64,000 nt of DNA from positions 347,030,799 through 347,094,798 of the forward strand of contig NC_135497.1 of NCBI RefSeq assembly GCF_052857255.1, in the 5' to 3' direction. The translations under genes were made by a program, and so were the position numbers. The notes below the pieces were generated by a model. That model saw only the letters and a list, made by a program, of their open reading frames with translations, did not search any database and had not been told where the DNA came from. This document shows, piece after piece, positions 32,672-63,693 of this stretch. Positions within the stretch are counted from its first letter, which is position 1; every line of letters begins with the position of its first letter. Origin of the DNA: Amblyomma americanum. Lineage: Eukaryota; Arthropoda; Arachnida; Ixodida; Ixodidae.

Positions 32672-32923
32672 CTACACCGTTGACGCATCATGCGCTACAT
32701 CTGCACGTGGTCGGCCTCGACGTGGCTTCAATCCTTGCTGCGGTAGTGCAAGTCCCGTAGGCTTCTGCGGTCTCGACGTTGACGCATCTTGCGCTTCTGC
32801 TTTACGTGGTCGACCTCGGCCCCGCTTCACTCCTCCTTCCAGCGGTGTTGTGTTCCTCGGTCGTACCTTTGGCGCACTTCCGTCTGCCCTTAAGCGTGGC
32901 CGTCCTCGGCCCGGCTTCAATGC
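32672..32923 (-). CDS. In-frame AT-hook extension after TAA (83 codons)
   Basis: Directly after TAA 32924-32926 the same frame stays open for 83 codons to TAG at 32672. It encodes three AT-hook cores in about 30-residue repeats: PGRGRPRLR, RGRGRPRKAE and PRRGRPRADV. AT-hooks bind the minor groove of AT-rich DNA. Exact frame continuity, repeated function-like motifs and the following AATAAA argue that this was, or is, the protein's C-terminus. Options are stop readthrough, alternative splicing past the TAA, a recent nonsense mutation, or a sequence error. TAA followed by G is not a classic leaky context. Confidence 0.6.
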   Translation of the reverse strand, partial: ALKPGRGRPRLRADGSAPKVRPRNTTPLEGGVKRGRGRPRKAEAQDASTSRPQKPTGLALPQQGLKPRRGRPRADVAHDASTV

Positions 32924-33176
32924 TTATTTACATTTAGCGGCATGCATGTGTGGGGCCTGCAGCGGGTACCGGCGGGAGTGTATGACCTGCTCGTGCCTCC
33001 TTGCATGGACGCGTTGCCTGAACCTCTTGCCACACTGGCCGCACTCGTAGGGCTTCTCCCCACTGTGGATCATGTGAACCTTGAGATTCTTCGGCTGGGA
33101 GAAACTCTTCTGACACAAAGGGCACACGGACTCTCGCCTGCCAACGTGGGTACGCTCGTGCCTGATGATATTAAAC
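32924..33176 (-). CDS. PRDM9-like: PRDM-like exon 11: zinc fingers 2 (end) to 4
   Basis: Acceptor GCACGCAG at 33177-33184. One base completes the Lys codon begun in exon 10, rebuilding finger 2 as an exact C-X2-C-X12-H-X3-H. Finger 3 (VCPLC...) has H-X2-H. Finger 4 (ECGQC...) has H-X4-H. The frame ends at TAA 32924-32926. Confidence 0.93.
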
Positions 33177-36100
33177 CTGCGTGCATGAAGGGTACACATA
33201 AGGAGAATTACGACACGACTACGAATTTCTGCTCCTGATGCCTCTGTTATTATGTACCTTTAGCATATCATGTACCGTGTCACCGTTACCGGTACCGTAC
33301 GGTACCGAGAACTTGCGCAGCCAATGCACATTCGCATATCGCCCTGACAGTGCCAGATGGCACAAGGTACCCGGCAGCTGCGCGTGTGCGTGTAGCATCA
33401 GGACTAATTAGTACGTGCTCACCGGCGGTGGGTGGGCTCCCGGTGATTTGGTAACGGTTACAAGGTACACAGTAGGCTAAAGGTGTCTAGTTATATGTGC
33501 ATACCTCTTCCAAGGTTAAGATTTCGCCAGTGACGTTCACACCTTCCATCTATATCACAGCCGCTGGTGTCAGGCGCATCTTTGGCTGTTTCTGACGCAG
33601 CTCTTCCTCATGTGCGAACGTCTCCTGTTGACGTTTCGTTCGTATGTCCTCCCTAAGGGAACCTCGGCAGACACGTACTTCAGTTGTAATGTGATCGACT
33701 CAGCAGTAATGCTAATCAGGCTTATTGAGGAGTGTCTGAGGCACCACTGCTCAGTTCAGCTCTGCAAGTACTGAAACTCACACGCACACTGTCGCACTAA
33801 ATTCTTTAGCGCCCAATAAAGGTCAGCGCTTATGATGGGCTGACCACGAGGCGACCAGATTGCGTGGGCGGCTCGTACACTTGCGCCACTCCTCGTGAGA
33901 GGCCGCTGTCAAAAGCACCAGCAGAGCCGTTTCGCACACGGCAGATTCACTGCATTCTGACACCGCAAGAGCGGCTTCAAACTACAAATTTCTATACAGC
34001 GGAGGCAGCAAATAACGGCCTTGGTTACAACGAACACTCGATTATTACGAATGATGGTGGCACTACCGTAAAAATGTGTATAAGAGGAATGGCACCGCGT
34101 CTCAGACATAACGAACGACTGCGCCGTACTTGCGCTAGCGTCACCGCCGCATGGACCCAGGCCTGGCAGACGACGGTGACGAACGAGGTGTTTGTGGCAA
34201 CGCGTCGTTATTGCCGAGCTGGCCGGCACGGGTGACTTCGTTAACGCCGATATCACTGAGTCACGAACTGATGAAGCATTGCAGGTAAAGTACGAGCACT
34301 CCCGGACTGCCGCGAACATTATGAAGACCACGAGTAGGAGGCGTACCTATTGCCGCCTGCCTTGAACGCTTCATCCTTAATTAGTTATGTCGCATCCCTA
34401 AAGCAGATTGTTGGCGGTAAGGTTCTCGGCGGGGAGCACATGACCACCGTGGACAGCTGAGAATGCACTTTCAAGTATCAGACGCACATAACTCACAAAC
34501 TCCCTTTTTTAAAATATATCTATTGTTCTTCTGACTTTATAATTTGGGTGTAATACTAGGAGTTCGCTTACTACGAACTTCGGATACAACGAATGCATTC
34601 AGTGCGACCGCCATGCTCGTTTGGACTGCAATTGTTATCTTGCTGGAAAAAGGTGGGCAGTGTTTCTTGATAGAAAATGAACAGAAAGCGCGCACAAGCC
34701 CGCAGGGACCCGTTCGAGTGCGCTACTGCTACTAGTGATGCTGATGACTGCGTTGTGCTCTGTCCAAAAATTGTGGCATTCTAGCAATCATTGTGTATTT
34801 GTACGGCGACTTCACGATTTGTCCCTCTCTAAAGTAATTACGGCTTGAATACCTGGCTCGTCATCAGGAAGGACATCGCTCCATTTAACTGGCCACAATA
34901 ACGCAAAGCAAGGAACGGCGCCATAAAACGATTTAAGACCTACTTGCGACTGCTCGTATAGGTGCAGTACGTACAGCGGCGGATTCCGTCCACGCTACGC
35001 CAGTGTTTCCGCCGGGTATGCATTTCCAAGTTGTACTGAGTAGAGAAGAGGTCACCGCACTTCTCACAGGCGAGGAAGAGGCTGTTCAAGGGAACTATAT
35101 CGACGTCCTCTGAAAAAGAACAAAGCAGTAGGAGGAGCGAATGAGCACATGTAAAGTGAAGAACTGCCCCGAGAATTCAGTGTTCTTAATGTGTACCGTG
35201 GCAGAGAGGAAAAGGCCAGCAGTAGTACTTTTTCGCATCAGTTCCTTGGTACCAATTCTGTACATGGTAGTGTCGTTAAGGTAGTAGTAGAATGGTATAT
35301 AATTAACCTGAATAGTACAGATATTAAACTCGCAGTCATATCAATTATTCAAAAAATAGAATGGCTGATGGCCCTGGCAGGAAAAATTTAGAGCATGAGA
35401 GAGAGTCCTAACTTCATATCTACGAAGTTCGGTGAATTTGAGGAAAAGCTCTGCAATCAAAAGTCTGACATTAAAGACCTTAAAAGAGGATGACTGAGTT
35501 TGAAGAAAAGGATGGCCTGAAACAGGTAGCCTAAGCCCAGCTAGAAAATGACGTACATGACCTCGGATTCAGGAGCAGGCAGATGCACTTAGATGTGGAT
35601 GGAATAAAAGAAGCACAGGGTGAGGACCTGACAGCCATAATAAATAACGTTGCTGATAAACTTCGAGTGCCTCATTTGACAGAACAGGAAATTGCACACG
35701 TTCATCGACTCCCATGCAAACGTGATAAGGTGCCGGGCATTATTGTGCGTTTCACGAGGCAAGCAATAAGAGAAAACTGGAATAAGAATAAGGAAATCAG
35801 CGAGGAAAGCGATCCACCCATTTTCATGCAAGAACACTTAACAGGCCGCAACAGACAAGTACTTCAAGGAACGAAAGACTGCGCCAAAGACAAAGGTATG
35901 TCAGCGGAAAGGTTTTCGGAAGGAAATGTGAGGGAATGAGCGCCATTCATGTGAGGGCAAAGAGTGACTTGGATCAGTTATAGCATTTTTGATCTTATCT
36001 TTTTTGTTTTCTTCTTGAAACGTAACCAAACTGCAGCCCATATGTTATTATCTGCCCAGCGACCTGAACCGCACTGCTTCGTTTGTTCCGCTGATATCGC

Positions 36101-39100: not shown

Positions 39101-42100
39101 TATCGTTGGACACCTGAACCGCGCCGTAAGGGAAGGGATAAAGGAGAGAGTGAAAGAAGAAAGGAAGAAGAGGTGCCGTAGTGGAGGGTTCCGGAATAAT
39201 TTCGACCACCTGGGGATCTTTAACGTGCACTGACATCGCACAGCTCACGGGTGCCTTAGCGTTTTTCCTCCATAAAAACGCAGCCGCCGCAGTCGGGTTC
39301 GAACCCGGGAACTCCGGATCAGTAGTCGAGCGCCCTAAATACTGAGCCACCGCGGCGGGGCCAAGCGAAAGGGGCTGCGGCTTTTCTGCGCTTCCGCTGC
39401 CTGTACCTTTTCAAGGCAGAAATGGATTTGATTTGATTTATTAAATATTCTGCCTATTCGCGATACAAAGGGAGCGCGATGGTACTGACCCGCACTGATC
39501 TGTCAATTGGTAATATAAACATTGAATATAAAAAGGCAGTGCTTTTCTAGAAGCGCTATCGACCAGCTTTGCATCGGTGCACATTCATCAAATTCCGAGG
39601 TTCTTTTCATGCACTAAGTATATATACATAAAAAGCATGCACCCATCCCCTTTTACCCACAGTTTATTCTCCCTGCGATTCAGGCAATGTGTTGCTGTTC
39701 CTTCACTTTTCGCCCAGATGCCCTCGCACAAAAAGGTCCGCCGTCTCTGCGGACATTCATGGTGTTCATAATCAGGCATAATCGAATTAGCTTATTGCTG
39801 AAGAGGGAACGGATGAAGCTAGTGAAGAGTAAGTCCATTACCGAGTTAGCAGTAAGAGGGAAAACAGAGGAATTGAGGATATAGCTGTCGAACCGATATT
39901 CAGCTTTAACTGAATTAGACGATCATAACGTACATTAAATGAGTGATAATCTGACAGGTGTCATTACGGAGTGCGAAGTAGAAGTAGGCGGTAGGACGGT
40001 TCGACAGAATACCGGCAAGATATCTCAGGAGACAAAAGATCTGATTAAGAAACGCCAAAGCATGAGGAGGCCTAACCCTACAGACAGAATAGAACTAGCA
40101 GGGCTATCGAAGTTAATAAACAAGCGCAAGGTAGCCGACATAACGAAGTTTATAATGGAGACAATCTTGCATGCTCTAAAGAACGGAGGCAGGCTAACAG
40201 CGGTGAAGAGGAAACTAGGCATAGGTAAAAACCAGATTTGTGCGTTAAGTGATAAGGAGGGCAATGACACTAGGAATAGGGATAAGATAGTTGAAGCAGC
40301 TGAAGATTTCTATACAAATCTATGCAGTAGCCATAGTAACCAGAACGTTGATGAGATAGACAGTAGCCCGCACCAGTGCGTCATCGCGCCAGTAACGAAA
40401 GAGGATGTAAACAAAGCCTTAAGAACAATGGAAAGGAGAAAAGCAGCTGGGGAGGATCAGGTAACAGAAGATGTGTTGAAGGACGGTGGGGAGATCGTGC
40501 TAGAAAAGCTAGCCACCCTTTATACGCAATGCCTTCTGACCTCGACCATATTAGAAGCTTGGAAGAATGCAAACATTATTTTAATTCATAAGAAAGGAGA
40601 CGCCAAGGACTTGAAGAATTACAGACCGATCAGCTTACTCTCTGTTGCCTGCAAGATAATTACTTAGTTAATCGCTAATAGAGCCAGCGACATTAGACTT
40701 CAATCAACCAAATGATCAGGCAGGCTTTCCTAAAGAATACACCATAATAGATCATAGTCACACTATCAATCAGGTGAAAGAAAAATGCGCAGAAAACAAC
40801 AAACCCCTATATATAGCCTTCATTGAATACGAGAAAGAATTTGACTCAGTGGAAATCTCAGCAGTCAGACAGGCATTGCAGAATCGGGGTGTAAAAGAGC
40901 CTTTTATCAAAATACTGGAAAACATATATTGCAAGATTTCATTCCTCTGGGATAGTTGGTATGGATCCATCTTTGGGCCAGCGTGAATTTCGGGACGCAC
41001 TAACGTAGACAGATACATTGAAACAAAGAACAGCATCGCTACCATAGTCCTCCATAAAGCCAGCAAGAAAATTCCCATAAGGAAGGGCACCAGGCAAGGC
41101 GACACAATCTCGCCAAAGCTATTCCCCGCCTGTTTGCAGGAGGTATTCCAAGGCAGGAATTGGGAACTGTTCGGGATAAGAATTCATGTAGAATACCTAA
41201 ATAATCTGCGATTCGCTGATGACCTTGCCTTGCTGAGTGAATCCGGAGGTGAACTGCAAATCATGTTCAATGAGTTGGACAGGCTGAAACAGCCTAGCAG
41301 GAGAAATGCAGTTAACAACTGCCAGCAAGGTGCTGGAAGTGGTAAAAGAATACGTCCACATATGACAGGTTGTGACAGCTGATCCGGATGATGAGAGGGT
41401 AATAATTCGAAGGATATGAATGGGATAACTAGAAGGATATGAATGAAGTGGAGCACATATGCCAGGTTCTCTCATATCGTGAATGGCAGTTTACCAATAT
41501 CCCTGAAGAGAAAAGTGCACAACAGCTGTATCTTAGCGGCACTCACCTGTGGGACAGAAATGTGAAGGCTAACGAAAAGGGTTTCGCTTAAGTTAAAGAC
41601 AACGCAGCGAGCAATGGAAAGAAAAATAATAGGTGTAACGTTAAGAGTCCGAAAGCGGGTAGAGTAGGTGAGGAAACAAACACGAGTTAATGACATCCTA
41701 GTCGAATTCAAGAGGAAGAAATGGGCTTGGGCACAGAATGTAATGCGAAGGCGAGATAACTGCCGGTCCTTAAGGGTAACAAAGTGGGTTCCAAGAGAAG
41801 GCAAGCGCAGCAGTGGACGGCAGAAGGTTATGTGGGCGGGTGAGATAAAGACGTTTGCAGGCATAGGGCAAGCGTAGCTGGCAAAGGATAGAGATAATTG
41901 GAGAGACATGGCAGAGGCCTTTGCCCTGCAGTGGGTGTAGTCAGGCTGATGATGATGATCATCATCATCATCATCATTCAGGCGAGTTCGTAGCTTGTAT
42001 ACGCTATCAACCGATTATAATCTACCAGCTAAGGAGTGCAGGATAAGCTTCTGCTCACCTTCTTTCAACGCACCTCGTCCTCTTGGGTTCCCCAGCAAAC

Positions 42101-45100
42101 TTTCGGCGAACGAAACTGAATATCCAACGAGCAGTTCTTCGCCGGGGCCGATGTTCCTTAGTGTGCGGTAGTAGATGTCCCCGTTGAAGAGCAAGGCCAC
42201 GAGGTTTTGTCTGCGCTTGCTGGGCGAGTAGTTCACTTTGTTCATCCAGTGGTAGCGCTCTTGTTGGCGGCCGTCTACCACGAAGAACTCTGCACATCGG
42301 CGCACCTGCGCAACGCAACGGTTAAACCGTCTAAACGCTCAATTCATATTTTTTCGCTACCATACTCACTGGAAACAACGGACGCAAAAAAACGTGGCGT
42401 AAATATTAAGTGCCCGGAAACGGGCCAGTATTTTGTGTTCTTATCTGGTACCTCTGTCACATTGGCATTTCGAAGGCCCTCGAACCGACCAGTCTCTTCA
42501 GTCCAAGGCCACTGAGCGCTGATACACGGACGGTTTCTGTGGCCATCGAGACACCGTTAGCGTACCGTGTACCCTGTTACCGTTACCGAAGTACCAGAAG
42601 CCCGCCCACCTCCTGCGAGCACGCGTTGATTGGCCCGGATGCTACAGGCACGCGCGTAGCCTGCCGGATACCTGGCGCCATTTGGCACTTTCAGGGTGAT
42701 TTCACATCTGCATTGGTTGATTGCGGGCTCCCGATACCAGTCAACGGAGCAGCATCGAACTCTGGAGATTTCGAGGGCCTCCTTGCGGTGGACATGCGCA
42801 GTCTCGGACGCGATCGCTCGCAGCAACGCGTAGGGGAATAGAAGCAGGGCAGCATCGTTTTTGAAAATATGGAACTAAATATATAGCACCTATTTTGATG
42901 ATGATGGTGATGGTAAATTTTTTTATAGCGCATAGGCTTCTGAGGCCAATGAGCGCCATGCAACAAGGAATTTTGGTCTGCTGAAAACTTATTTTACGGA
43001 AAAAAAAGGACAGCCCGGGCTTCAAACACTGCGGCGCGCGTAGTGCCAGTGTTAGCGATATAAACTAACCAGATTCCTTATGTGTGCATGAATGCTACTG
43101 AATTCAGCTCGTCCAAGATAATGGAGTTCATTTAAAGAGTGATTATATTCCCGTAACGAATAAATATTTTGTTTTTAACCCTTTAGCTTAGCCTTCAGCT
43201 TATGCTAAAGCTTCGAGCTTGACCTGTGAGTGCGACTCTTGTACTGTGCGACTCTTGTAGGAAAATAAAAAGGCCCCTAATAATGGATCTCGTGACTGAG
43301 CGATGTCCCATGGTTTTGTCTCATGTTTTGCGTGCCAAAGAACTTTGGCGAAATGGCGAGGCACTTACAACCATAGGTGAATTATCGCTAAACATTTTTT
43401 CTGTTTTCCTCTAACATCATAATAACGCGGCCTGTCAGTGCAGCAGTATAGTATTATGCAATGGCTTTGGAAAGCGCGCATGTTCATTGAATCCTCGGTA
43501 TGCAATTTGCAACTGTAATCATCCACTGCAGTCTTTCCCTCTCACACAATAATGGCACCTATTGTAGCATAAAATATCGCACCGAAAAAACACCTCGAAT
43601 GCACTTGAAAGTATGGGATAGAGTAATAACGCGAGCAGCGTAGCGCAATTACAGCCCAGCTGTTTCGAACTTTGTCTAAAGGAGCCTTTACAACCTGAGT
43701 CTGAGTGTTCTACGCATTGGGCGGGCAAACTTACCGGCCAGATGCGGCCGCCATTTTCGATGCCGTCCACCTTGACTCCGTGATAGGGGCCGAAGTGACG
43801 TCCCTTGGGAAGCGCCTTCAACGTGAACACTCCCTCCGGGACACCCTTGACTGTGGACTTGCCCGAGGTCAGGAACTCGAGCTTGTTCATACCACCGAGA
43901 CTGGCGTCTTCCGGTTTCACCTGCGTATATTATTCAGCCGTGTTCACCAGCCGCTGTACTGCATACTGGGCCTTCGCATACACATCACATTTTCTGCGCT
44001 GGCTGTTAGCGCTATGAATGCAGCGTTTTGCGCCGTATTAACGGTCGTTATCCCGGCGCGTGTTTGCGATTAAGTGACCTGTAGCCCCCCCCGCCCCCAT
44101 CGAAAGAAAAGTGCGCGAAAAAATGGGTTGACTTGTGCAGCGCGCCAGAAGAGTGATGTTGGCGTTCGTGAAGTGTATTGCAGATAGAACCGGCGGAAGC
44201 TTGTGCCCTCCAAAAATGCTCGAAACCGTGTATACGGCGTACTTAATATGTAATATGTAACACGTAAATGAACGGGCCCTTGAGTTGGCGGATGATTTGG
44301 CACGCAAATGAGATGATGCATTTTTGGACCGAGTATCGCGCTCAAGGAGGTGTCGCCATATTTTTGAATTATACTCGACGTTTTCCTTTTTTAAGATTTA
44401 TCGGATTGGCATCATTCAAGTCACGAAAAAGCAATCAAATGCAGTCGAACCTCCTTACAGCGAAACTGCTTATAACGAAATAACGGATATAACGAAGTAA
44501 AGATGATTCCCGTTGGAAGTTCGATCAACGCGGTCTATAGCGAAACTATCGTTATAACAAGTAAACCACCGGGCACCTTCAACTTCGTTATAACGAGGTT
44601 CTATTTGGGACGCTAAATGTGCCGCACGGCACAAAACCTGGTGTCATTAACGAACGTTAATACGTTAAGACGTTACAGAAAGGCATGAAGTCCGGTTATG
44701 TATAAAAAGTCACATAATCTTCGGGCTGAAATGTTTTTCGTTATCCTCAAGTGGAAATCGGAGTCATTGAGGACAGGCCTGCCTCTTGAAGAACGCGAGC
44801 GCGCATTAGCGGAATTCCTGGGCATGTCCACAAAAGGTGGTGGACAGTGGTGTCAGAAGTGGGTGTGTCGCCGTGAGGGCATTTTTCCGGCGCAGGAATC
44901 TTCTCACTTTGCCACTTGTGCCGAACTGCGGTCGTCAGGCCACTCCGATGGGCAGCCGCCTGAGAGAGACCTCCTCCATCCGTGATAGGTTGGGAGGAAG
45001 GGGGTGGGTACATGGGGGAATAAGAGCACGTGTACGCCGCCTGAGGGAGGCTGAAGACGTTAAATGTGACAGAAGAGGATCTGGTGGCAAAGAGGCAAGG

Positions 45101-51100: not shown

Positions 51101-54100
51101 ATTTCTGCTGACACAATAAATAGAAAAGGTGTAGCATTGATAAATGTCGCACACGAGATTATTTCCTGAACAAAATGGGTTCATCTCAAGTTAAGGACAA
51201 TGGGGAGCCATGGAAAGGAAAATGATAGGTGTAACGGCAAGAGACCGGAAGCGGGCAGAAAGGGTGATGGAACAAACGTGGGCTAATGACATCCTAGTCG
51301 AAATCAAGAGGAAGAACTGGGCTTAGGCAGGGCTTGTGAAACGAAGGCAAGAAAAGCACTGGTGCTTAAGGGTCACGGAGTGAATTCCAAGAGAAGGCAA
51401 GTGCAGGGGGGGGGGGGGGGTGGAAGGAATTTAGGTGGGCGGATGAGATTAAGAAGTTTGCCAGGATACTGTGGTGCAGCTGGCACGGGAGAGGGTTAAC
51501 TAGAGAGACGTGGGCGAGGCCTTTACATTGCATATTTCGTGGTCAGGCTGATGATGATGATGAGGCGCAATGGCGGGTTCAGACAATAGTGGCGGAAGTG
51601 AAATGAAAAAACTGCATTTCTTTTGCAACTGGCTTGCGAAGGAACTCCATCGCAAATGGCTCGGCCATTTCGCGATGCAGCTATCAAGCGTCTCATAGAT
51701 AGACTGTATTGTCAACACTACACTCTTATCCGTACAATCCGGAGTCACTATGGCGACTGCCCTCACCTTCCTCCTCGCGCGATTGTCGTGGGCATGGCGC
51801 CTTTTGTTCCTCATTGGGGCTGCCTGTACCGGGAGCCACACACTGGACTGTAGAAAATCCAGTAGTGGAAATTCCCGATACGTTACTGGTCCTGGTCGGG
51901 GCACCTTGCGATGCCTGAAATAACTGCACCTGCAGAAAAACATCCGAAAATTATCGCGTTCTGTTTTCTTTCAAGGTATGTAGATACCGATTGCTGAAAG
52001 CTCAACGCTGCACGGGTGGTACAGTGTATTGCAAGCACAGAGCAACAAGGACATTTTGCATATTTGCTTTTATAGGCGGTACTTTCTGAACGTTGCTCGG
52101 TGTTTTCCTTGGAAGCCAATATGTGCTCAAATAATCCAGCAGGCGATTTCTTGCAGGTACCCATGTCCAAGATTTAAAACAAATGCAGAGAGGAATAACT
52201 TGTCCCGATTGCTATGTAGTGTTCGAATTCGGTATAAGCCTTATTCTCGTCAATCAGATGTTACACAGGCGTTACTAGGCACGCTGCTTTTATATAAGAG
52301 ACCGCTATCCCAAAGACCTCTTGTTCTGGCATACAGCGGATCTTTGGACAATCAGCTCCAAATAAGCAACGCAACGAGTTGAAATCACTTTAGACGGCGC
52401 GCACGAAAATTAATCTACATAAGGAGGGTAGGATGAGAACGGCGTACAACGCTTGTCAGTGATGAAAAAGTACTCTCAGGCTTTACATGCCCGGAATTTT
52501 TGCACAAGTTTCAATATTCAAATAATGTAACCTGCTGTTACGGAAATATTTGAGCTAATGTTGTATTCTTTGGAAGCAAAACAACAAAATATTTCTTTTA
52601 AAGTTTCTGCATTCCTGGAATCGCAGAATTTAAGAATGCCATAGAAAACCGGTGGGCAACGTTTTGGGCGATAGCAAAAAACGTTAAAAGCGAGAACTGT
52701 AATAGCTAAATCTTGCCCTATATGACAAAACTGGTTTCAAGAAACCTTCGTTCAAAATCGATTATGTGTAGACTTTCTGGCCAGGATTCACTTTGCGCCA
52801 AATAGCTGCACCAGCATGTAGTGACTTAGTGTGAAGTGGATCGTGCTCGCCTTGATAGCTTCAAAAGCAATCCCATAGGCCCGGAAGCACCCGTTTCTCA
52901 CATAACGTGCCCATTTCGATCGACCAGGTCAATTGAACTACAATCTGCAGTCAACAGGAAATGCCCGGAACTTGAATTTGCGATCTCATCCCTAGACATC
53001 ACAAACATTTCGAGCACTGAGGGTCACTCGCACGGCTTCCAAACTCCCTTTAATGAAACCTGGACAAGGCGCGTTCGCATTTCAAATGAGGCGAAATAAA
53101 AAGTGCGACTAAACTGAACGTTTCGTACTGCGCGAAAGACAAATTGGTTACTGTTTACCCACCTTGACGCTTCAATGTCGAGGGTGCAGTTTTTGCAGGA
53201 AAAGAAACTATTAACCTCTGAACTTCATTCATTTTTATAAGAGCTGTGCAAGGATTTCCATAACAGAGGGGAATGTGGCCCTTACCTGTCTGGCCTTTGG
53301 TCCGACAATAGGAGGCAATTGTTCACCTATAACGTACACTCCTGGAACGAAGTAAGAGTGCAGATGAGTCTGGAGCGTTGCAGACAGTGGACTTTCTTAA
53401 CAAGATGTGCAATGTTTCCACCTGCGCAAAAAACTTGTCGCCGGCCACGCTACAAGTGCCCCGCTCCATCTCTCCTCGGCCTCGGCCAGCTTAATATTTA
53501 TTTTACGATGGCAAAAGCGGCTTTAGAACCAAAAAGGTCAAACCCTGTTGCCAGTACCTTTAGGTTAGCAAACAATTTCATCAACGTGAATTTTGATCTC
53601 TAAGCTACTACTATTTCGCACGCATGAAGGGAAGTGCTAGAGATGCTACAAGCACAGAGTTTCTCGTTATTAGAGAAAAAGCTGACATCTGCCATGGAAA
53701 GCCGCAGAAATGCTGGAGACATGAGCTTTCGTATTTGGCTTGGCAATTTTTAGGCAGGGATACAGCTGCAACGACAATACCTTTCTCGCGCCGAAGCCTC
53801 GAAGAAGTGCTGTCAAAGGGGGACACGAAAGAACAGCACACGACAATACAGCATGCGACAAAACAGCGCACAAAAAACAGCGCAGCGACAAAATAGCGCA
53901 GGAAAAAAAACAGCACCGAGAAAAAATTGCGCAGGGAAAAAACAGCGCGCGTGAAAACGGAACGTCGGACAAAACGGCACAGCGACAAAACAGCAAAAGC
54001 AACCTGTCAAAGGTTCCACACGAGCCTGGCACCTAAGTGGCACTGGCGTTAAATTCATCGAAAAAGTTCAGGATTGCACGTTTGAAGTAATTTTTCGTGC

Positions 54101-57100
54101 GCACAGCGGTCAGCATTTCGACAAAGCCTCCACATGTATACCGCATCCGAGGCACAATGCACGTTTTCGGCCGAACACTAGCGAAGGCAGATTATAAGCC
54201 TCGTCTTGCGGCATTCTCTACGTGGATGAAGCTCTGCTCAATAAGCTCGCGCATATAGTTGTGTGAGTTTTCAATGTAGCTATCGGTGCGGAATTCTAGA
54301 GCGCCATGTATAATATACTGCGAAACATGGCGTCTCCCATTTGAGCTCAAGTCCTTCGCTTTCGTGTACATTTTTGTCAAGATGTACCATCAGTATCGCG
54401 TGCAAACGAAACAAAACTTTGTTCATTCAAAGCAGGTCTTAAGGATAAGAGTCTGCTTTTCTGATTGAAAACGCAGTGTTTTAAATTAATCGGCCCGAGA
54501 TTAAGTATCCTCCAATTCAGGGTGACTCCTGATGTGTCCCTGTCCAGCCCAATCACGACGGCTACAAAGCGCACCTGATCGTAACGGAGCGTGTTCATCG
54601 CCAGGAAAATGTATTGTAGTTTGGGATCATTCGACCGTGAGGACGCGATGGAAAGAGGGAGATACAATTATATCTGCCTGCTCCCGAGCAACACACGTAA
54701 CGTTATCCGACACTTTGTAATTCTAGAATGAATGCGTAAACATTGTCACAACTGCACATTCCTTTCTTGGCCAGCCAGTCCGAAGACGACGAAGTGCTCC
54801 TTTTTTGCAGTGGTCGGCGGAAAGAGTTTTCATGATATTAAGCTGCTCGAGTTGGGGGAACTAATCTTTTGTTGTTAATGTAGCACTCCCCGCAAGCGTA
54901 AGTGCATTTCTACCTTTTTGGATGGTAAAACACACTTCACCGAAAGGCTGGATACTTCAGTGAGCCGAGGCTGCCAGAGAGAGTCGGCGGGCGGCTGGGT
55001 CTCAGCTGCATCATCGTCGGCTGCATCAGGAAGAGCGCCTGTCTCGGCTGCATAATCCTCGACATACCCTATCTCGGCCTCGCCTCGGTGCTTTTTATTT
55101 GTTTATTGGGATGATTGGGATAGCATACTGAATGCCGAAACCACAGGTGAGGACAGAGACCAAGGAAGTTGATATGACAATCTGTACCCGCCCATAGATT
55201 CATTCAGGTAATTTGTCGGTCAACAGCCCGACTTCGGGCTCGCAGTCAGCATCGACTTGCGCAATCTAGTCACCAAAAGCAGAACAACAAGAGATAAAAA
55301 TCGCGGACACACAACCTACAACGCTTTTGGATATTCGTGTGTCACTGCACGCATGGTGGCGTAAACAACCTCTATTACGCTCGGCGCTGTTTCCAAGGGG
55401 AAACGATGAACCCTTTTCGGGATAGGCCTGGTCCGAGTATTTGGGTGATCTCCATATCAACGCGAACCGGAGGGTTACTCAGCGAGGATGTCGAAGTTGT
55501 CATGCTGTCGACAATATAAATTACGTATTCACCTGTTATGGAGTGCGCGAGATGCTTGAAGATTGCGGCTCCCACAGCAGAACCTGGCAGGTTTAATTCA
55601 CGCCACAAGTAGCCTCGGTTGCTTTATGTTCAGCGCGCCTTCGCTCTCCCGAGCTATACCTCTCGGAACTTTCGTTAAAAGAAGTTTAAGTTCATCAGAA
55701 GTAATCTATCGCGGCTATTGCTGCCCTTGAAGCAGCCAAATTCCACGCACACGCAAATACTGAAACCCCTCCACTGACGTCTGTGGAAGCTATGCACTGG
55801 TATCGCAAACGAAGATATGCGGGAAAAAATACAAACGGCAGGCACTCTTTTGGGTCACAATCTATAGGTAACGGCGCATAGGAAGGACGTGGTGTCGGTA
55901 CAAACGACTGTTACCGCTTATTTCAGTTCTGGTCGTCTTTAACAAGAGGAAATCTTCACGCGGTTCGTGCTCCTTGAAAGACGCCGCTTGGTTCCAGCGA
56001 TTATCCACACAACTAGCCGCTTGTCTCAGAACAAGAAGAAATCTTCACGCGGTTCGTGTTCCTTGAAAGACGCCGCTTGGTTCCAGCGATTATCCACATA
56101 ACTAGCCGCTTGTCTCAGGTCGGGCTGTCAGCACACTGTATGCTCGTGATGCTGTATGCTGTGTGCCGGCAGATGCATTAGACCGTCCCGGCCATCTTAG
56201 GGCGGGTTCCTCACGACAGCTTTGACAGAAAGAATGAAAGTATTTCCCAATAACAGTAGAAAAAAAAAGGTTCGAGAGGACAGCGGCAGCCCTGCACGCA
56301 CTGCTTCTACAATGACTGCCGTTTGAATAACAGCTAATATATATTTTTTAACGCGCGCATCTTGGTAGTCCAAAAAAATTGCTGATGGTTTAGCTCTGGT
56401 TAACCCTGGTCGAAAGCGAAAAGCTCCATCTCCCTCGTTACGTTTGTGGTCGAGGAACTGGCGGTCTCCGCGGCAGGCGGCGCACCGCATACACCTAGCT
56501 TTAGGCTAAACGCATAAAAGTTCACCGGTGCTTTATCCAGAACAAACTTTCATGCCCTGCGCATGAGATTCCAGACCCCGCTCTCCCGCTTTTCTCGGTG
56601 AAGGTGTGTGACGTCACGCAGGGAGTAGGCAGCATACCTTGGATCCCTCCTTTTCTCCTCTCCGCAACGCGGTCACGGCGAGCACATATGCCGCTCTCCA
56701 CGGCAGGAGTGGAATCGATCCCATCTAGCCTTCCGCTTAACGCATCAAAGTGCACCAGCGTTTTATGCAGAATCCACTTTCATGACCTGCGCATGCGATG
56801 CCGGCAGACGCTTTCCCGCTTTTTCCCTTGACCGAAAGGCAAGGTCAAAGGTCAAAGTCGAGATAGATAGTGAAACAGCCGCTAGTGTCGCCTGCTGTAG
56901 CTGACATCATGTGTCGAATCTGACCACCACCAGTTATGCTCATGGTTTCACCTCTAGCTACATTCAAGATCAAACTTGCGGCCCCGCTGTACTCTAGGTA
57001 CTTCCAAGTTCAGGCTTGCGGCCCCGTTGACAGCTGTAAAAGCTGGCGCAGCGAAGATTTTCGCTCGAAAAATAAAAACGCAGGTACTCACCTTCCTCGA

Positions 57101-60100
57101 AGCGCCACACTTCTCGCGAGGCTGGTTCCACTGCAGCACGCGGTCTTCCGTTGCCAGGGACTCTACTGCTCTGGCTCCTCGCTGCAGATTTGGGCACCTA
57201 AAATTCATGGGTGTACATAGAATAGGGGCGAAGTTATTGCCCTAGCTGGAATCTGATCGCTTATAAGGCGATGCGGCGCCATAAGAGGAGTGAGTTTAGC
57301 ATCGCAAGCAACGCTCCAGAAAGTCATCAGACCACGTGCGTGTTCCCAAGCTTACCGGAGCACACGGTTAAAGACCCCTAACTACCAACGAGTTCAGAGT
57401 TGGGAATTCAGGGAGCGAAGAAAATTGTGTGTGGGCTCTCGATGCTTTGAAATGATGTACAAGCCTGCTGCTTCCGCCATATAAAAGAAGGTGGCAATAG
57501 GAACAGGGTGCAAAGCTTGAAGGCATCATTTACCTCCCGCAAATCAGGCTTAAAATATTCTCACACGCATCCTATGTAAATTGTATTGGTAAGGGGAGGT
57601 GGTAAGTACCAAAAATTTTCAATAGCTCTTTCGCCTGAACAACATCGTACCATACACAGAGGAAATGCTCCAGGAGCTGGCAAAATTTCGGATAGATTGA
57701 TTTCGCTTCATTCAGTTCAAAGCCCTTTCTCAATAAAATTGTTTTCTTTTTCATGTCTTGGGGCAGTCGCGACGTCAGATCAACAGGAAATTAAGAACCG
57801 AGCATTTGCTCATCTATACCTTTCGGTGCCAAAGAGAGCACCCTGATTCTTCTATCGCCATACTGCATATCCCTACCTCCCCGCAACCACACGTTAATCT
57901 TAAACATATCCTTTATTCCTGCTGTGTAGCAATTTAATCCCATTTAATCCTCACTCCGCACCCCCTTCAAGCGCGCCTGGCTGACATCTGACCAGCTGAC
58001 AGACAAATTGGCCTTGGTATCTGGCGCAGTATGTACTCGACGCTTAATGCTTTCTTTGAAGCTTTCTGCTCCTCCGAGTCCACAAAAAATCTATAGTGCA
58101 ACATAGCATATAGCCTTAACAATCTTATGTCGTGGCACTCTTTCTTCCTAATGTTTCCAATAAAAGAATGTTCTTGTTTTGGGTGGAACATGAACGCTGT
58201 AAATAAACCACTTATAGACATTGTTTGCAAGAGAGTACAATCCCTCACAGTATAAAGAAAGTGTGAGCAACATAGGGCCAACGCAGAGCGGTCCATCGAG
58301 GAAAAAAATAGTGCTACACAGTGACCGATGCTAGGGCAAAAATAGAGCGTTGGTAACAAGAAATGAGTCACAACCACACCTTGATTGTGGTGCACTTGCC
58401 CTGTCAGTCGCATACCGAAGTCGCTGAGCCAGAGATCGGACAGAATCCAAAACTCCCCCTCCTCCTAAGTCTGCGCGTCCAATATAAGGCTCAGCGCCTA
58501 CACAGCTAAGTCCGGAGAACGCGCTGTCCATCGCAGTCACTCTGTCAGCATGACAAAAAGGGCCGGCCTTTAGCTTCAAACTCTCAGATTCTGCACATTT
58601 CGCAGGAATTGCATTTCGGGAAGTCATTCATTCTATGCACAATCATCGAATGAAACCATTTGCCATTAAAAATAGGTACCAAATCGGACACAACTAAATT
58701 TCAATATCTAGTCCGTGGTTTGGATGACATGCAACTTAACCCACAGCCCTAATGGTGTCTTCCTTTCTTTCTTACATTCTTTTTTTATCTGAAGAGGTGC
58801 CAGTTGCGATGATTGATTATGCACCCTAAAATTTTGTTCCCATGCATTTGTTTATTTTAAGCGATTTACCTGCCCATATCACTTTATAGTCTATTTATAA
58901 GACTAGCGTTGAAAAAAATTTAGCAAAATTATGTAGAAGATTTCGCGTATATGTTTGTTTAAGTATTCTTGCTTGTTGTCGTGTGTTTTTTTCAGTATTA
59001 TGTTGTGACGAATATTTGCTTTTCTTATGCTCCTCCCCCTCCCCCTTATGCAGTACCCTCGAAAGAGGGACTTAAGAAAACTTTAATCAATAAATAAACG
59101 CACGCTAATGTCACGCTAATGTCATGCTGAGTGGAAGTTCCCGCCATCAAGTCCTGCCCCGGACCACGGCTGTCGCATTTCAATGCATGCAATGTAGGAG
59201 CTGCAAGCATCTTGAAATTTCTGTGAGCGACAACTAGCCCGATTCACTGCTGTAAATACGGATCCTCCTTTATAACGTATCCAAAAGGTCAAACTGCTCT
59301 TTTGGGATGCAAAAGTTATTGGGCACGAACAATTCTCGTTGATACTTAAATCTTCACGTGACAGGCACAAGGCAATAGCAGTGGTCGTGGGCGATGCAAG
59401 GTCCGTACCTGAAGAGGTTTGAGTTCCTCGATGACCCAGCCAGAAGAAACAAGTGGCTCTGAAACAAAATGTGCACAATTATGAAAGCAGGAGGTGCTTT
59501 TTTCTAAAACGTGGAATTTGTAGAGTTAATGAGGCAAGCAGTTCCCAGACATCCGAACTGTGTTGTACAAAGGCCGTTCTTCCGCCTTGATATTCAGGGC
59601 AACACAGGTGCGTAAATAAAGAATATAAAAACTGAGTACTTCTCACGTATCACGTATACGCCTTCAAAATCCCTAACTGACACCGGAAGGATGGCGTTCA
59701 ATAGTGCCTGGCCTGACATTCTGGAGGTGAGAAGTAATGTACGGTGTGCTCATAGGCTGTTTGAGCTAAAATGATTCATTGACGATGACAGCAACGGAAT
59801 TGGCGGACGTTATAATCCATACATAGGCTCATAAACTTAGATATGTGAATGAACTTTTATGTATTTACTCTTGGGCTGTTCTTTTCATTTAGTGAATAAG
59901 AGCGATCCATCAGGGTATCTTGTATCAACTATCGGGTGTGGAGAAATATAAAGTTGCCCTTAGTGCAGTGGCTCGAGTAATTTCAGCTGTTCAGACGTAT
60001 CCAAGGGACACGTAAGCAGAGCGCATCCACGTCTACCTCTCTCCAACCCCGCCAGGGAAATGCCTCGCATACCGCCACTCGAACCAGAAGGAAAGCGCGG

Positions 60101-63100: not shown

Positions 63101-63693
63101 GAACATAGCGGTGATCATCATTGTTCGGGTTCACGTGCACCCGCCGTGAACACAAATGATCTTTCTTTTCAAGTGTTTACGACCTTGGTGTGGTTTTTCC
63201 TGGACATATATAGCATTTCACACCACATTGACCGTAAAGAAATAAAGTCCAGCACAGAGCTTGCAAAGTTTTATCATGGAGCCCTATATATATCCCGCAA
63301 ATGAAAAGCGCTTTTAACAGAAACGCGCTTTTTTCGCTATGCGCCGAACGCCGAACAACCCGCAACATGCTTTGTTTGGAGGACGACTCAGGCAGAGCTG
63401 TTCACTTAAGTTCCAAAAAATGAGGTTCCCGGTGCAGCCAGGGGGAAAGTATATGCATGGCGTCCTGCAAAGTAGTTATACAATCATGCCTTCCTTTAGC
63501 CGTGAGCAGTACTACTGAACGACTAACGCTTAGAAATAACTAATAGAATAGGTGCAGACTTACCATCTGCTGCCGTTGGAGCGCCATGGTGTTCGAAGTT
63601 CAGCAGGCAGTTCCTGAAGTGCTGGGAGGGTGCGCGCCATGTTTCTTGTGTTACGTCGGGAGGCTTGCACTGTAATGTTTCTTCTGAGTTCAT
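32924..63693 (-). CDS. PRDM9-like: PRDM9-like histone methyltransferase, 11-exon model
   Basis: Joined exons: 63693-63564, 59458-59409, 57197-57092, 51107-50973, 48472-48423, 47079-46938, 45800-45727, 43920-43735, 42305-42059, 35109-34944, 33176-32924. All introns are GT-AG and all ten phase joins agree, giving 512 residues. Layout: degenerate KRAB-like 14-36; KRAB-like 108-135; acidic/proline linker; PR/SET about 254-355 with Tyr in FGPYHG (275), IYYRT (337) and LLVGY (353), the counterparts of PRDM9 Y276, Y341 and Y357; four C2H2 fingers at 388-409, 419-439, 447-466 and 474-495. PRDM9 trimethylates H3K4 and H3K36 at sites chosen by its fingers in meiosis. Here there is no long minisatellite-like finger array, SSXRD is not visible, and finger 3 has H-X2-H. 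The start exon is likely but not proven. Confidence 0.85.
33271..33469. mobile_element. MITE, intron 10, about 199 bp
   Basis: Terminal inverted repeats of 20 bp (TGTACCGTGTCACCGTTACC, and GGTAACGGTTACAAGGTACA at 33450-33469) pair with two mismatches. The interior matches 42568-42740 in the opposite orientation. No coding capacity. Confidence 0.75.
34944..35109 (-). CDS. PRDM9-like: PRDM-like exon 10: zinc finger 1 and start of finger 2
   Basis: Acceptor TTCTTTTTCAG, donor GTAGGT. 166 nt; two bases complete a Glu codon, then 54 codons and two bases of Lys. Finger 1 is ACEKCGDLF...HTRRKH (C-X2-C-X12-H-X4-H) and the exon ends inside finger 2 (RCTYCTYTSSR). Confidence 0.93.
35400..39440 (+). 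mobile_element. CR1-like non-LTR element, heavily decayed, in intron 9
   Basis: Pieces in order on the plus strand are an ORF1p-like frame (35583-35939, L1/CR1-type RNA-binding, with FMQEHLTGRNRQVL), an endonuclease-like stretch (36240-36620), RT fragments (37152-37544; FVDFSKAFHLVNH near 37795; SGVPQGSILG near 37970; CADET near 38065), a C-terminal part, and a TTTGATTTGATTT 3' tail near 39427-39440. Many frameshifts and stops are present. A SINE sits in its 3' UTR (39056-39359). The 5' edge is approximate. Confidence 0.8.
39056..39359 (-). mobile_element. Full-length Ruka-like SINE with 11-bp target duplication
   Basis: Minus orientation, with the head (A and B boxes) at the right. The duplication GCCAAGCGAAA flanks it at 39045-39055 and 39360-39370. 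It is nested in the 3' UTR of the CR1-like element. Confidence 0.95.
39780..41965 (+). mobile_element. RTE-clade non-LTR element, copy 2, 5' truncated, in intron 9
   Basis: The open frame at 39939-40667 carries the end of the endonuclease-to-RT linker and RT motif 2 (NYRPISLLSVACK). Later frames give FIEYEKEFDSVE (motif A), RKGTRQGDTISPK (motif B region near 41085) and NNLRFADDLALL (motif C with catalytic Asp pair, near 41205-41240). The end is the RTE-type tail shared with copies at 27.2 and 51.2 kb plus a (GATGAT/ATCATC)n tract at 41946-41978. Stops and frameshifts separate the parts. Confidence 0.9.
42059..42305 (-). CDS. PRDM9-like: PRDM-like exon 9: second half of PR/SET domain
   Basis: 247 nt, phase 0 to 1; acceptor TTGCGCAG, donor GTGAGC. 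Holds MNKVNYSPSKRRQNLVAL, matching the PRDM cofactor-binding region (N...QNLVA), then IYYRT and PGEELLVGY with two of the three catalytic tyrosines. Confidence 0.96.
42568..42740. mobile_element. MITE, intron 8, same family as 33271-33469
   Basis: Starts TGTACCCTGTTACCGTTACC. The interior (GATGCTACA, GCACGCG, CCATTTGGCAC segments) matches the reverse complement of the copy at 33.3 kb. The right end is degraded. Confidence 0.6.
43735..43920 (-). CDS. PRDM9-like: PRDM-like exon 8: first half of PR/SET domain
   Basis: 186 nt, 62 codons, phase 0 to 0; acceptor ATACGCAG, donor GTAAGT. GVPEGVFTLKALPKGRHFGP is the PR-domain entry motif, followed by the YHG tyrosine (residue 275). The exon ends RIWP. 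Confidence 0.96.
44442..44606. mobile_element. Tigger/pogo-like MITE remnant, intron 7
   Basis: The left end CAGTCGAACCTCCTTACAGCG and the right end TTCGTTATAACGAGGTTC form imperfect inverted repeats, with GATATAACGAAGTAAA inside. This is the sequence style of pogo/Tigger terminal repeats. No transposase. Confidence 0.6.
44745..45375 (-). mobile_element. I/R1-group RNase H and zinc-finger remnant, intron 7
   Basis: Minus frames give the RNase H motifs MELQAILNAM and LFTDSQGALKHL, then HWVQGRTDVDNTAPD where the usual GH...GNE-AD residues are altered. After a frameshift comes CPHGDTPTSDTTVHHLLWTC (CCHH-type finger) and the C-terminal end. RT is absent. Confidence 0.75.
45727..45800 (-). CDS. 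PRDM9-like: PRDM-like exon 7: linker
   Basis: 74 nt; acceptor TGTCTTCCAG, donor GTAAGTG. Two bases complete a Pro codon, then 24 codons beginning YDGSGMVARADS and ending VRSE. Phase 1 in, 0 out. No recognised domain. Confidence 0.8.
46467..46590. mobile_element. 124-bp MITE, intron 6
   Basis: Ends TTCCCAAGCAGCACAGGTCA and its imperfect inverse (TGACTTGTGCTGCTTGGGAA-like) form about 34-bp terminal inverted repeats with five mismatches. The centre contains the perfect 16-bp palindrome AGGATGGGCCCATCCT. Confidence 0.8.
46938..47079 (-). CDS. PRDM9-like: PRDM-like exon 6: proline/acidic linker
   Basis: 142 nt, phase 0 to 1; donor GTAAGT. The acceptor is a tandem CAGCAG, so the exon may also begin at 47082 and add one Gln. 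It reads VIRPQESQSECPPAP... and ends DQREEK. A second frame is also open, but only this frame joins both neighbours in phase. Position and phase equal exon 3. Confidence 0.78.
48083..48290 (+). mobile_element. Second-subfamily tick SINE, intron 5
   Basis: The head CCGCGGTGGCTCAGTGGAT... with B box GGTTCGATCCC, then a body with TGCATGTTAAAGAACCCC and a CTCTCATA segment. Same subfamily as 18073-18261. Confidence 0.85.
48423..48472 (-). CDS. PRDM9-like: PRDM-like exon 5: 50-nt linker exon
   Basis: Acceptor TTTCGTCCAAG, donor GTGAGG. 50 nt, phase 1 to 0, reading AVAPGEEEPMVVEPNE after the joined Gly. It has the same length and phases as exon 2. Confidence 0.78.
49593..50172. repeat. 54-bp minisatellite, about 10-11 units, intron 4
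   Basis: Unit CCTTTTCGGTTGAAGTAAAG... through GATACGACTCGGTTTAATAC, about 54 bp, with small indels; one unit near 49860 is shortened. The unit length is a multiple of three, and a minus-strand frame stays open through the last units. Confidence 0.93.
50973..51107 (-). CDS. PRDM9-like: PRDM-like exon 4: KRAB-like segment 2
   Basis: 135 nt, phase 1 to 1; acceptor TGTGTCAG, donor GTAAAT. The core KPAYFSEETWRKLPDDSKKH followed by YGNV has the KRAB spacing F-S-x-E-x-W-x2-L...Y-x2-V seen in PRDM9. KRAB-type boxes recruit partner proteins. Phase-1 borders are typical of KRAB exons. It contains its own ATG (codon 2), so a shorter isoform could start here. Confidence 0.88.
51175..51566 (+). mobile_element. 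RTE-clade 3' end, copy 3, intron 3
   Basis: Same tail segment as 27.2-27.7 and 41.5-41.96 kb, with a 17-base G run near 51408 and a (GATGAT)n end. It lies 68 bases upstream (in gene sense) of the exon 4 acceptor. Confidence 0.85.
53820..53995. repeat. Low-complexity CAGCGCA/GACAAAA tract, intron 3
   Basis: Irregular repeats of ACAAAACAGCGCA-like words, which also produce spurious frames on both strands. Confidence 0.75.
55941..56118. repeat. 89-bp tandem duplication, intron 3
   Basis: 55941-56029 and 56030-56118 are adjacent copies (AACAAGA-GAAATCTTCACGC ... TTGTCTCAG) with three visible differences. Confidence 0.93.
56505..56830. repeat. Diverged direct duplication, about 225-bp period, intron 3
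   Basis: The segment with AACGCAT-AAAGT-CACC-G...TTTCATG-CCTGCGCATG...CCCGCTTTT occurs at about 56508-56595 and 56737-56825. Confidence 0.65.
57092..57197 (-). CDS. PRDM9-like: PRDM-like exon 3: basic linker
   Basis: 106 nt, phase 0 to 1; acceptor AATTTTAG, donor GTGAGTA. It reads VPKSAARSQSSRVPGNG... and ends EVWRFEE. An alternative frame is open but does not join its neighbours. The start V-x-x-x-x-x-SQS resembles exon 6. Confidence 0.72.
59409..59458 (-). CDS. PRDM9-like: PRDM-like exon 2: 50-nt linker exon
   Basis: Acceptor TTTGTTTCAG, donor GTACGG. 50 nt, phase 1 to 0, reading PLVSSGWVIEELKPLQ after the joined Glu. It matches exon 5 in length and phases. Confidence 0.7.
61440..61630. 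repeat. Degenerate tandem repeat, intron 1
   Basis: Three to four units of a TTCAAA-TTGG-ACC-CGCTT word about 50-60 bp apart. They also create a repetitive minus-strand frame (KRGTKFE, KRGAKFE). Confidence 0.6.
62320..62625 (-). mobile_element. Full-length Ruka-like SINE, diverged, intron 1
   Basis: Tail with AAT repeats, body and complete head (ending GCCACCGTGCCGG) in minus orientation. More diverged than other copies; the target duplication is not evident. Confidence 0.88.
63564..63693 (-). CDS. PRDM9-like: PRDM-like exon 1: start codon and degenerate KRAB-like segment 1
   Basis: ATG at 63693-63691 is the only Met in the frame, which is open back to a TGA near 63811. It reads MNSEETLQCKPPDVTQETWR ... 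ending TAAD, with donor GTAAGT leaving phase 1. ETWR aligns with exon 4 but the KRAB Phe/Ser and Tyr are lost. A CAG at 63686-63684 after a pyrimidine run is an alternative acceptor, so an upstream exon cannot be excluded. Confidence 0.75.

Follow-up and report, generated by a model that had tools for sequence, protein, structure and literature searches.

A PRDM9-derived gene of the tick Amblyomma americanum, one copy of a dispersed family and probably failing or relaxed

A gene related to PRDM9 lies on the minus strand of a 64,000-nucleotide stretch of the genome of the tick Amblyomma americanum, hereafter the window (contig NC_135497.1, or C1, positions 347030799-347094798; the genome comprises 2.56 Gb in 429 contigs). 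Eleven exons, running from position 63693 to 32924 and all bordered by GT and AG, encode 511 residues plus a stop, and the phases of the ten junctions (1,0,1,1,0,1,0,0,1,2) are all compatible. A sequence-only reading had proposed these exons and a chelicerate-looking genome, and both proposals hold. Its count of 512 residues and its gene end at 32672 need correction: coding ends at a TAA codon at 32926-32924, and the in-frame sequence that follows this stop runs to 32672. Three A. americanum proteins (P0001, P0002 and P0015) together match all eleven exons in tblastn, co-linearly and on the same strand, with no single one of them covering the full set; these co-linear homologs rule out a chance assembly of the exons. 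P0001 matches the last exon with an expectation value (E) of 2.6e-52, in an alignment that extends beyond the window's stop, and exon 9 (hereafter SET2) with E 2.4e-48, while the short exons 1, 2 and 5 are supported by matches of E 0.4 to 0.001 together with co-linearity. Finger 2 (CTYC...HERTH) exists only after exons 10 and 11 are joined. The reading of the exons as one gene with C2H2 fingers is supported. The gene start and everything upstream of exon 4 are unsure, because the NCBI model of P0001 (LOC144128053, a near annotated copy) starts at a methionine in exon 4 and because P0036 suggests two further exons between exons 3 and 4. Coordinates are collected in Table 1.

Table 1. Exons and related stretches of the gene, in window positions.
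Feature	Positions	Strand	Evidence and remarks
Exon 1	63564..63693	-	ATG, GT donor; weak match to N-termini of P0002 (E 0.37) and P0007 (E 0.21); may be 5' untranslated or alternative
Exon 2	59409..59458	-	AG/GT borders; matches P0002 (E 0.10) and P0015 (E 0.001); coding status unsure
Exon 3	57092..57197	-	Two open frames, matching annotated P0002 and P0036; coding status unsure
Exon-like stretch outside the sequence-only model	53286..53341	-	P0036 match, E 0.013; AG/GT borders
Exon-like stretch outside the sequence-only model	51767..51929	-	74% identity to P0036 residues 194-250, E 1.7e-20; AG/GT borders; in frame with exon 4
Exon 4, ancestral-KRAB-like motif (YFSEETW...YGNV)	50973..51104	-	PRDM9-like N-terminus profile
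Exon 5, acidic linker	48423..48472	-	Borders; P0001 match, E 0.036
Exon 6, proline/acidic linker	46938..47079	-	79% to P0001, E 9.9e-18
Exon 7, linker	45727..45800	-	74% to P0001, E 1.3e-6
Exon 8, PR/SET first half	43735..43920	-	Tyr274 at 43785-43783
Exon 9 (SET2), PR/SET second half	42059..42305	-	Tyr336 at 42170-42168; Tyr352 at 42122-42120
Exon 10, finger 1 and first half of finger 2	34944..35109	-	Splice borders; homolog match
Exon 11, second half of finger 2, fingers 3 and 4, TAA stop	32924..33176	-	Splice borders; comparison with relatives
Post-stop remains of AT-hook tail (translated in relatives)	32672..32923	-	Alignment with relatives

Exons 8 and 9 encode a PR/SET domain (Pfam PRDM2_PR, E 1.5e-22; SET, E 6.9e-5), for which the best solved structure by sequence is that of PRDM9 (4ijd, 2.1e-17); with the PR domain alone, PRDM9 scores narrowly above PRDM2 (62.3 vs 57.9 bits). 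Three tyrosines are kept, at residues 274, 336 and 352, in motifs (FGPY, IYYRT and LLVGY) that align with solved and with mouse and macaque PRDM9. A predicted model of the relative P0001 combines a PR/SET fold with fingers in a row (mean predicted local distance difference test score 63; 58-94 for blocks of the SET part). Searched by fold, this model finds PRDM12, PRDM3, PRDM5, PRDM4 and PRDM9 chains close in Z (14.0 to 12.5), PRDM9 having the highest identity among them (34-36%), and the top rows from Foldseek are zinc-finger arrays and PRDM9 4ijd. Since the first four families equal or exceed PRDM9 in Z, the fold alone does not choose PRDM9, and we rejected it as sole pointer.

Descent is read instead from a 32-row PR-domain tree, with PRDM1/ZNF683 as outgroup and without two short PRDM1 rows. 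All 18 tick rows form a single clade with support 100/99, which stays at 100/99 when PRDM2, MECOM, PRDM14 and PRDM1 are included (100/100 without two long rows). Within A. americanum, families A, B and C group together (88/80), as do B and C (100/99), family B itself is supported at 100/100, and the row nearest to the window copy is P0001. At the level of sequence, the descent of the window's PR/SET from PRDM9, within the tick PRDM9 clade, is confirmed, and the earlier call of a PRDM9-type SET domain with its three tyrosines stands, as the domain groups with tick PRDM9 proteins. The gene is a member of family B, a side branch that derives from PRDM9. From exon 4 on, annotated family B proteins, P0001 among them, have the same exons as the window gene, in the same order; P0001 continues through a fifth finger and an AT-hook tail, whereas the window copy does not. 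Copies L083-L086 and protein P0169 make up family C, which is intermediate between family B and canonical PRDM9; P0169 as annotated also contains a piece of RNase H and is probably a wrongly joined model.

Within the protein collection searched, family B seems restricted to Amblyomma. Among the 120 listed of 720 matches to a family B profile, all that are at least 50% identical to P0001 come from A. americanum, and the proteins of other ticks reach at most 43%; P0001 and the window copy are 72% identical over the search query. Among the 120 listed of 5742 matches to a canonical tick PRDM9 profile are proteins of Ixodes, Dermacentor, Rhipicephalus, Hyalomma and Haemaphysalis and, outside the ticks, of horseshoe crab, spider, barnacles, molluscs, coral and lancelet. 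The databases name some of these invertebrate proteins PRDM9 and others zinc-finger or uncharacterised. With matches in ticks, horseshoe crab and spider, chelicerate PRDM9-like genes are therefore already in databases.

The N-terminal part is KRAB-like, although this assignment is weak. The open reading frame at exon 4 is the best of 1390 in the window with a profile of 32 PRDM9-like N-termini (E 6.7e-5; next other frame, 2.3) and scores 1.5e-4 with a profile of 9 invertebrate N-termini (next frame, 0.44). This frame is longer than the exon; for the joined model the values are 7.2e-4 with the 32-row profile and 0.0016 with the 9-row one. Pfam KRAB has no match in the window model up to E 10, so that the KRAB-like part claimed from sequence is upheld by the PRDM9-like profiles and not by Pfam. 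Vertebrate KRAB zinc-finger genes carry a modern KRAB box that binds TRIM28; the motif seen here is ancestral in type. At C5:122260658-122263809, eight matches to the KRAB-like exon, spaced about 431-440 bp, make up a tandem array of this exon. Pfam finds no SSXRD in the window model, and none either in the canonical Ixodes protein P0053 (all 21 rows), which makes this a low-power test; the comparison for P0057, P0098 and P0055 covers the best 25 rows of each. The zinc knuckle PF18445 is not listed by Pfam for the window model, P0001 or P0002; it is listed for P0014, P0017, P0018, P0053, P0057, P0098 and P0055 (E 0.0069 to 9.3e-6), with all matches except that of P0098 under the curated cut-off.

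Copies of the gene are numerous and dispersed. For SET2, at least 75 near-full matches (at least 71% identity over at least 71 of 82 residues) are present among the 150 scored of 179 candidates; stops interrupt 11 of these and 64 are stop-free. The other scored matches comprise 3 of family C (56-58%), 21 fragments and 51 at 42-53% identity, and the 12 of these 51 that we fetched (L087-L098) are all of the canonical PRDM9 type. Half of these twelve have lost the third tyrosine, L093-L095 and L098 reading LLVSC, not LLVWY. The finger exon has at least 103 matches at 59% identity or more (150 scored of 3824 candidates), and the KRAB-like exon has 88 among 102 candidates, 81 of them at 66% identity or more. 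Clusters lie on C1 (3.9-5.2, 21, 26-33, 44-54, 57-60, 70-71, 367 and 501-504 Mb) and on C10 (71-72, 85-86 and 106-108 Mb). We fetched 74 of the 75 near-full SET2 matches; 68 are full-length and represent 56 distinct sequences, 48 of them stop-free, and among the 8 with stops, those of L079 and L082 may be artefacts of short-match extension. AG and GT stand where expected in 82 of the 90 SET2 exons fetched from all families (of the remainder, 3 lack AG, 4 have GC for GT and 1 is shifted by one base). The kept splice borders rule out retroposed copies; the copies therefore spread as DNA. At C1:44.2-50.2 Mb, family B SET2 exons occur as pairs at five places, the two members lying about 100 kb from each other in opposite orientation; these are large segmental repeats or an assembly duplication.

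The window copy is shorter than its kin: it has four fingers, and most of the relatives fetched have five. In an alignment of ten finger exons, one small deletion is common to the window and L099, L100, L101 and L102, and a second to the window, L099 and L101; between them they take out the final finger without shifting the frame. Among the ten, the window copy alone carries a stop codon at this site (32926-32924), ahead of the AT-hook tail, and it alone has one residue fewer between the two histidines of finger 3. In L103, L104, L106, L108 and L112 the reading continues through a fifth finger and repeats of the type GRGRPR, which we take to be the AT-hook core; Pfam AT_hook, at E 9.9 in P0002, offers no usable support. 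By SET2, the nearest relatives of the window copy are L010 (98%), L014 and L025, from C1:4.1-5.2 Mb. Damage is seen in L025 (acceptor lost, and a stop), L040 (shifted) and L099-L102 (stops or shifts). Because several of the nearest relatives, at C1:3.9-5.2 Mb, have stops or shifts, we think it more probable that the window copy is failing or relaxed than that it is a gene of importance; the evidence leans to decay, short of proof.

Across the 48 intact distinct copies of SET2, the median pairwise ratio of replacement to silent rates (dN/dS, or omega) is 0.51. Counted on a tree, SET2 has 188.7 replacement and 108.3 silent changes, with omega 0.56, 0.65 and 0.74 at a transition bias of 1, 2 and 4 (p 2.2e-6, 3e-4 and 0.0098). 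Inner branches are constrained (p 1.2e-5 to 0.0099), whereas terminal branches are not clearly so (omega 0.63-0.83; p 0.033, 0.11 and 0.27). Family B was therefore constrained while growing, and its recent copies are relaxed.

C2H2 fingers contact DNA at positions -1, 2, 3 and 6. Omega at contacts versus other positions is 1.69 vs 0.51 in six canonical copies of a C4 cluster, 1.72 vs 0.55 in the six other canonical copies and 0.93 vs 0.40 in all 12 together; these are 12 of 18 canonical-type finger exons, the remaining L123-L128 having two recognised fingers in five cases and four in L124. For family B it is 1.18 vs 0.44 in 18 copies (L115, L116 and L118 dropped from 21 rows) and 1.48 vs 0.33 in the 13 outside the window subclade. 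A column test finds excess replacements at contacts, a pattern also known from PRDM9, in the two canonical sets (p 1.8e-8 and 1.1e-7), and finds them in family B as well (p 0.0022 and 0.0013), with no such signal in silent changes (p 0.36, 0.17, 0.19 and 0.54). The window subclade, a small sample of five, has no contact excess (0.050 replacements per column at contacts vs 0.117 elsewhere, p 0.78). When contact omega is computed with local dS, the intervals (bootstrap over columns) include 1, both for canonical copies (0.74-4.65 and 0.73-5.45) and for family B (0.45-3.19 and 0.80-3.62). Dividing contact dN by all-site dS gives 2.07 (1.47-2.86) and 2.35 (1.65-3.16) in the canonical sets and 1.35 (0.78-2.03) and 1.17 (0.71-1.66) in family B. 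Provided that silent rates are even, positive selection on contact codons therefore has support in the canonical copies; it is not shown for family B. The rest of the family B finger has omega 0.33-0.44, with intervals below 1. Conserved contact residues in family B were considered and rejected, as contacts change more than the rest, though the interval includes neutrality.

Other features of the window include a 54-bp minisatellite of 11 copies at 49593-50171, within the intron after exon 4. By eye, a minus-strand open reading frame at 44938-45390, in the intron before exon 8, looks like a retroelement RNase H, and a plus-strand frame at about 2490-2831, a chance tblastn match, looks like the endonuclease of a long interspersed nuclear element.

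Taken together, the locus is probably one dispersed copy of family B, derived from tick PRDM9 and spread by duplication at the DNA level with its introns, and the copy itself is probably failing or relaxed. Exon structure, descent, copy number and the lost tail are direct results of the comparisons above. A typical family B protein would bind DNA through five C2H2 fingers and AT-hooks; its PR/SET may methylate histone H3, because the three PRDM9 tyrosines are kept, and its KRAB-like segment may bind partners. Such a protein would thereby mark chosen chromatin. The window copy would give a shorter form, with the last finger and the AT-hooks absent and one residue missing in finger 3. Several results pull the other way. 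The window copy's eleven exons and splice sites are intact and its frame is open through finger 4, as expected of a working short form; SET2 is intact in L010 and L014, and five matches to the KRAB-like exon at C1:3.9-5.2 Mb are all stop-free. Some copies may be uncollapsed haplotypes, since stretches of C1 seem to recur among the matches on C73 and C100. The deep order of the PRDM families is not settled on 117 columns, nor is the separation of all PRDM9 rows from PRDM1 and PRDM14, holding all PRDM9 rows together being not rejected (approximately unbiased test, 0.245 and 0.252). The terminal SET2 branches, not clearly constrained, belong here too. Along with the stops in 11 of 75 SET2 matches, they would also suit a reading of all family B as neutral debris of segmental duplication. 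We consider that unlikely in view of the 64 stop-free matches, the constraint on inner branches, the borders kept in 82 of 90 fetched exons and the low omega of the rest of the finger.

It is highly improbable that the window gene is the tick's working PRDM9, placing meiotic double-strand breaks, even though it has PRDM9 descent, the three tyrosines and the KRAB-like motif. The hotspot role that the sequence-only reading had suggested is not supported for this copy, because it is one of at least 75 near-full family B matches, has no zinc knuckle found by Pfam, lacks its relatives' tail and, with four fingers, sits in a five-member subclade without contact excess. The same genome has canonical copies with the knuckle (P0057, P0014 and P0018), with the KRAB-like motif (P0057) and with fast contact residues. 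These fast contacts, highly significant by column and weaker in family B, join the clustered expansion in recalling the vertebrate KRAB zinc-finger protein (KZFP) genes, and the tick genes could be a counterpart of these, targeting transposons or satellites. This we regard as doubtful: no target is known, contact positions are also structurally free, the local-dS intervals include 1 and the 12 canonical copies together give a contact omega below 1.

Like the PRDM9 of ticks (P0057, P0053 and P0098) and of vertebrates, the window gene has a PR/SET of shared descent, the three tyrosines, a KRAB-like N-terminus and a first finger soon after SET, and the intron inside finger 2 is common to it and the canonical A. 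americanum copies. Unlike PRDM9, it has no zinc knuckle that we could find, no SSXRD-like YPxR stretch that we could see and few fingers, while family B has dozens of copies and, in the window gene's relatives, the AT-hook tail. Vertebrate KZFP genes join a KRAB-like segment to C2H2 fingers and form a clustered radiation, as do the tick genes on C1 and C10; unlike KZFP genes, the tick genes retain PR/SET, and their KRAB-like part is ancestral, of PRDM9 type.

According to the literature, Prdm9 fingers evolve fast in Nematostella, Lottia and Capitella (PMC2779102), KRAB and SSXRD accompany fast finger evolution in vertebrates, where the three tyrosines are also treated (PMC5519329), an ancestral KRAB is present in invertebrates (PMC8835667), and three PRDM genes were assigned to arthropods in 2007 (PMC2082429); a further source is PMC10538959. 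The open-access literature yielded no paper on PRDM9 with Ixodes, Amblyomma or a tick genome, and none on the topic for chelicerates. What is unexpected is the large PRDM9-derived radiation in a tick, PRDM9-like genes in chelicerates themselves being already in databases.

PRDM9, the protein that chooses recombination sites in mammals, is treated mostly as one rapidly evolving gene of vertebrates; the KRAB zinc-finger genes, which share its ancestry, are regarded as a radiation within vertebrates. We tentatively raise the possibility that in this tick PRDM9 gave rise to a large set of DNA-targeted chromatin regulators whose number is still increasing. Positive selection would act on the contacts of the canonical branch, and a second branch has lost the zinc knuckle and bears AT-hooks; such a family might be an independent invertebrate counterpart of the KRAB zinc-finger genes of vertebrates, or a hotspot system made up of many genes. 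With roughly a hundred loci derived from PRDM9, of which some show an arms-race contact pattern, the tick genome offers an outside test of whether PRDM9 directs recombination beyond vertebrates, and of whether a KZFP-like radiation can restart from PRDM9.

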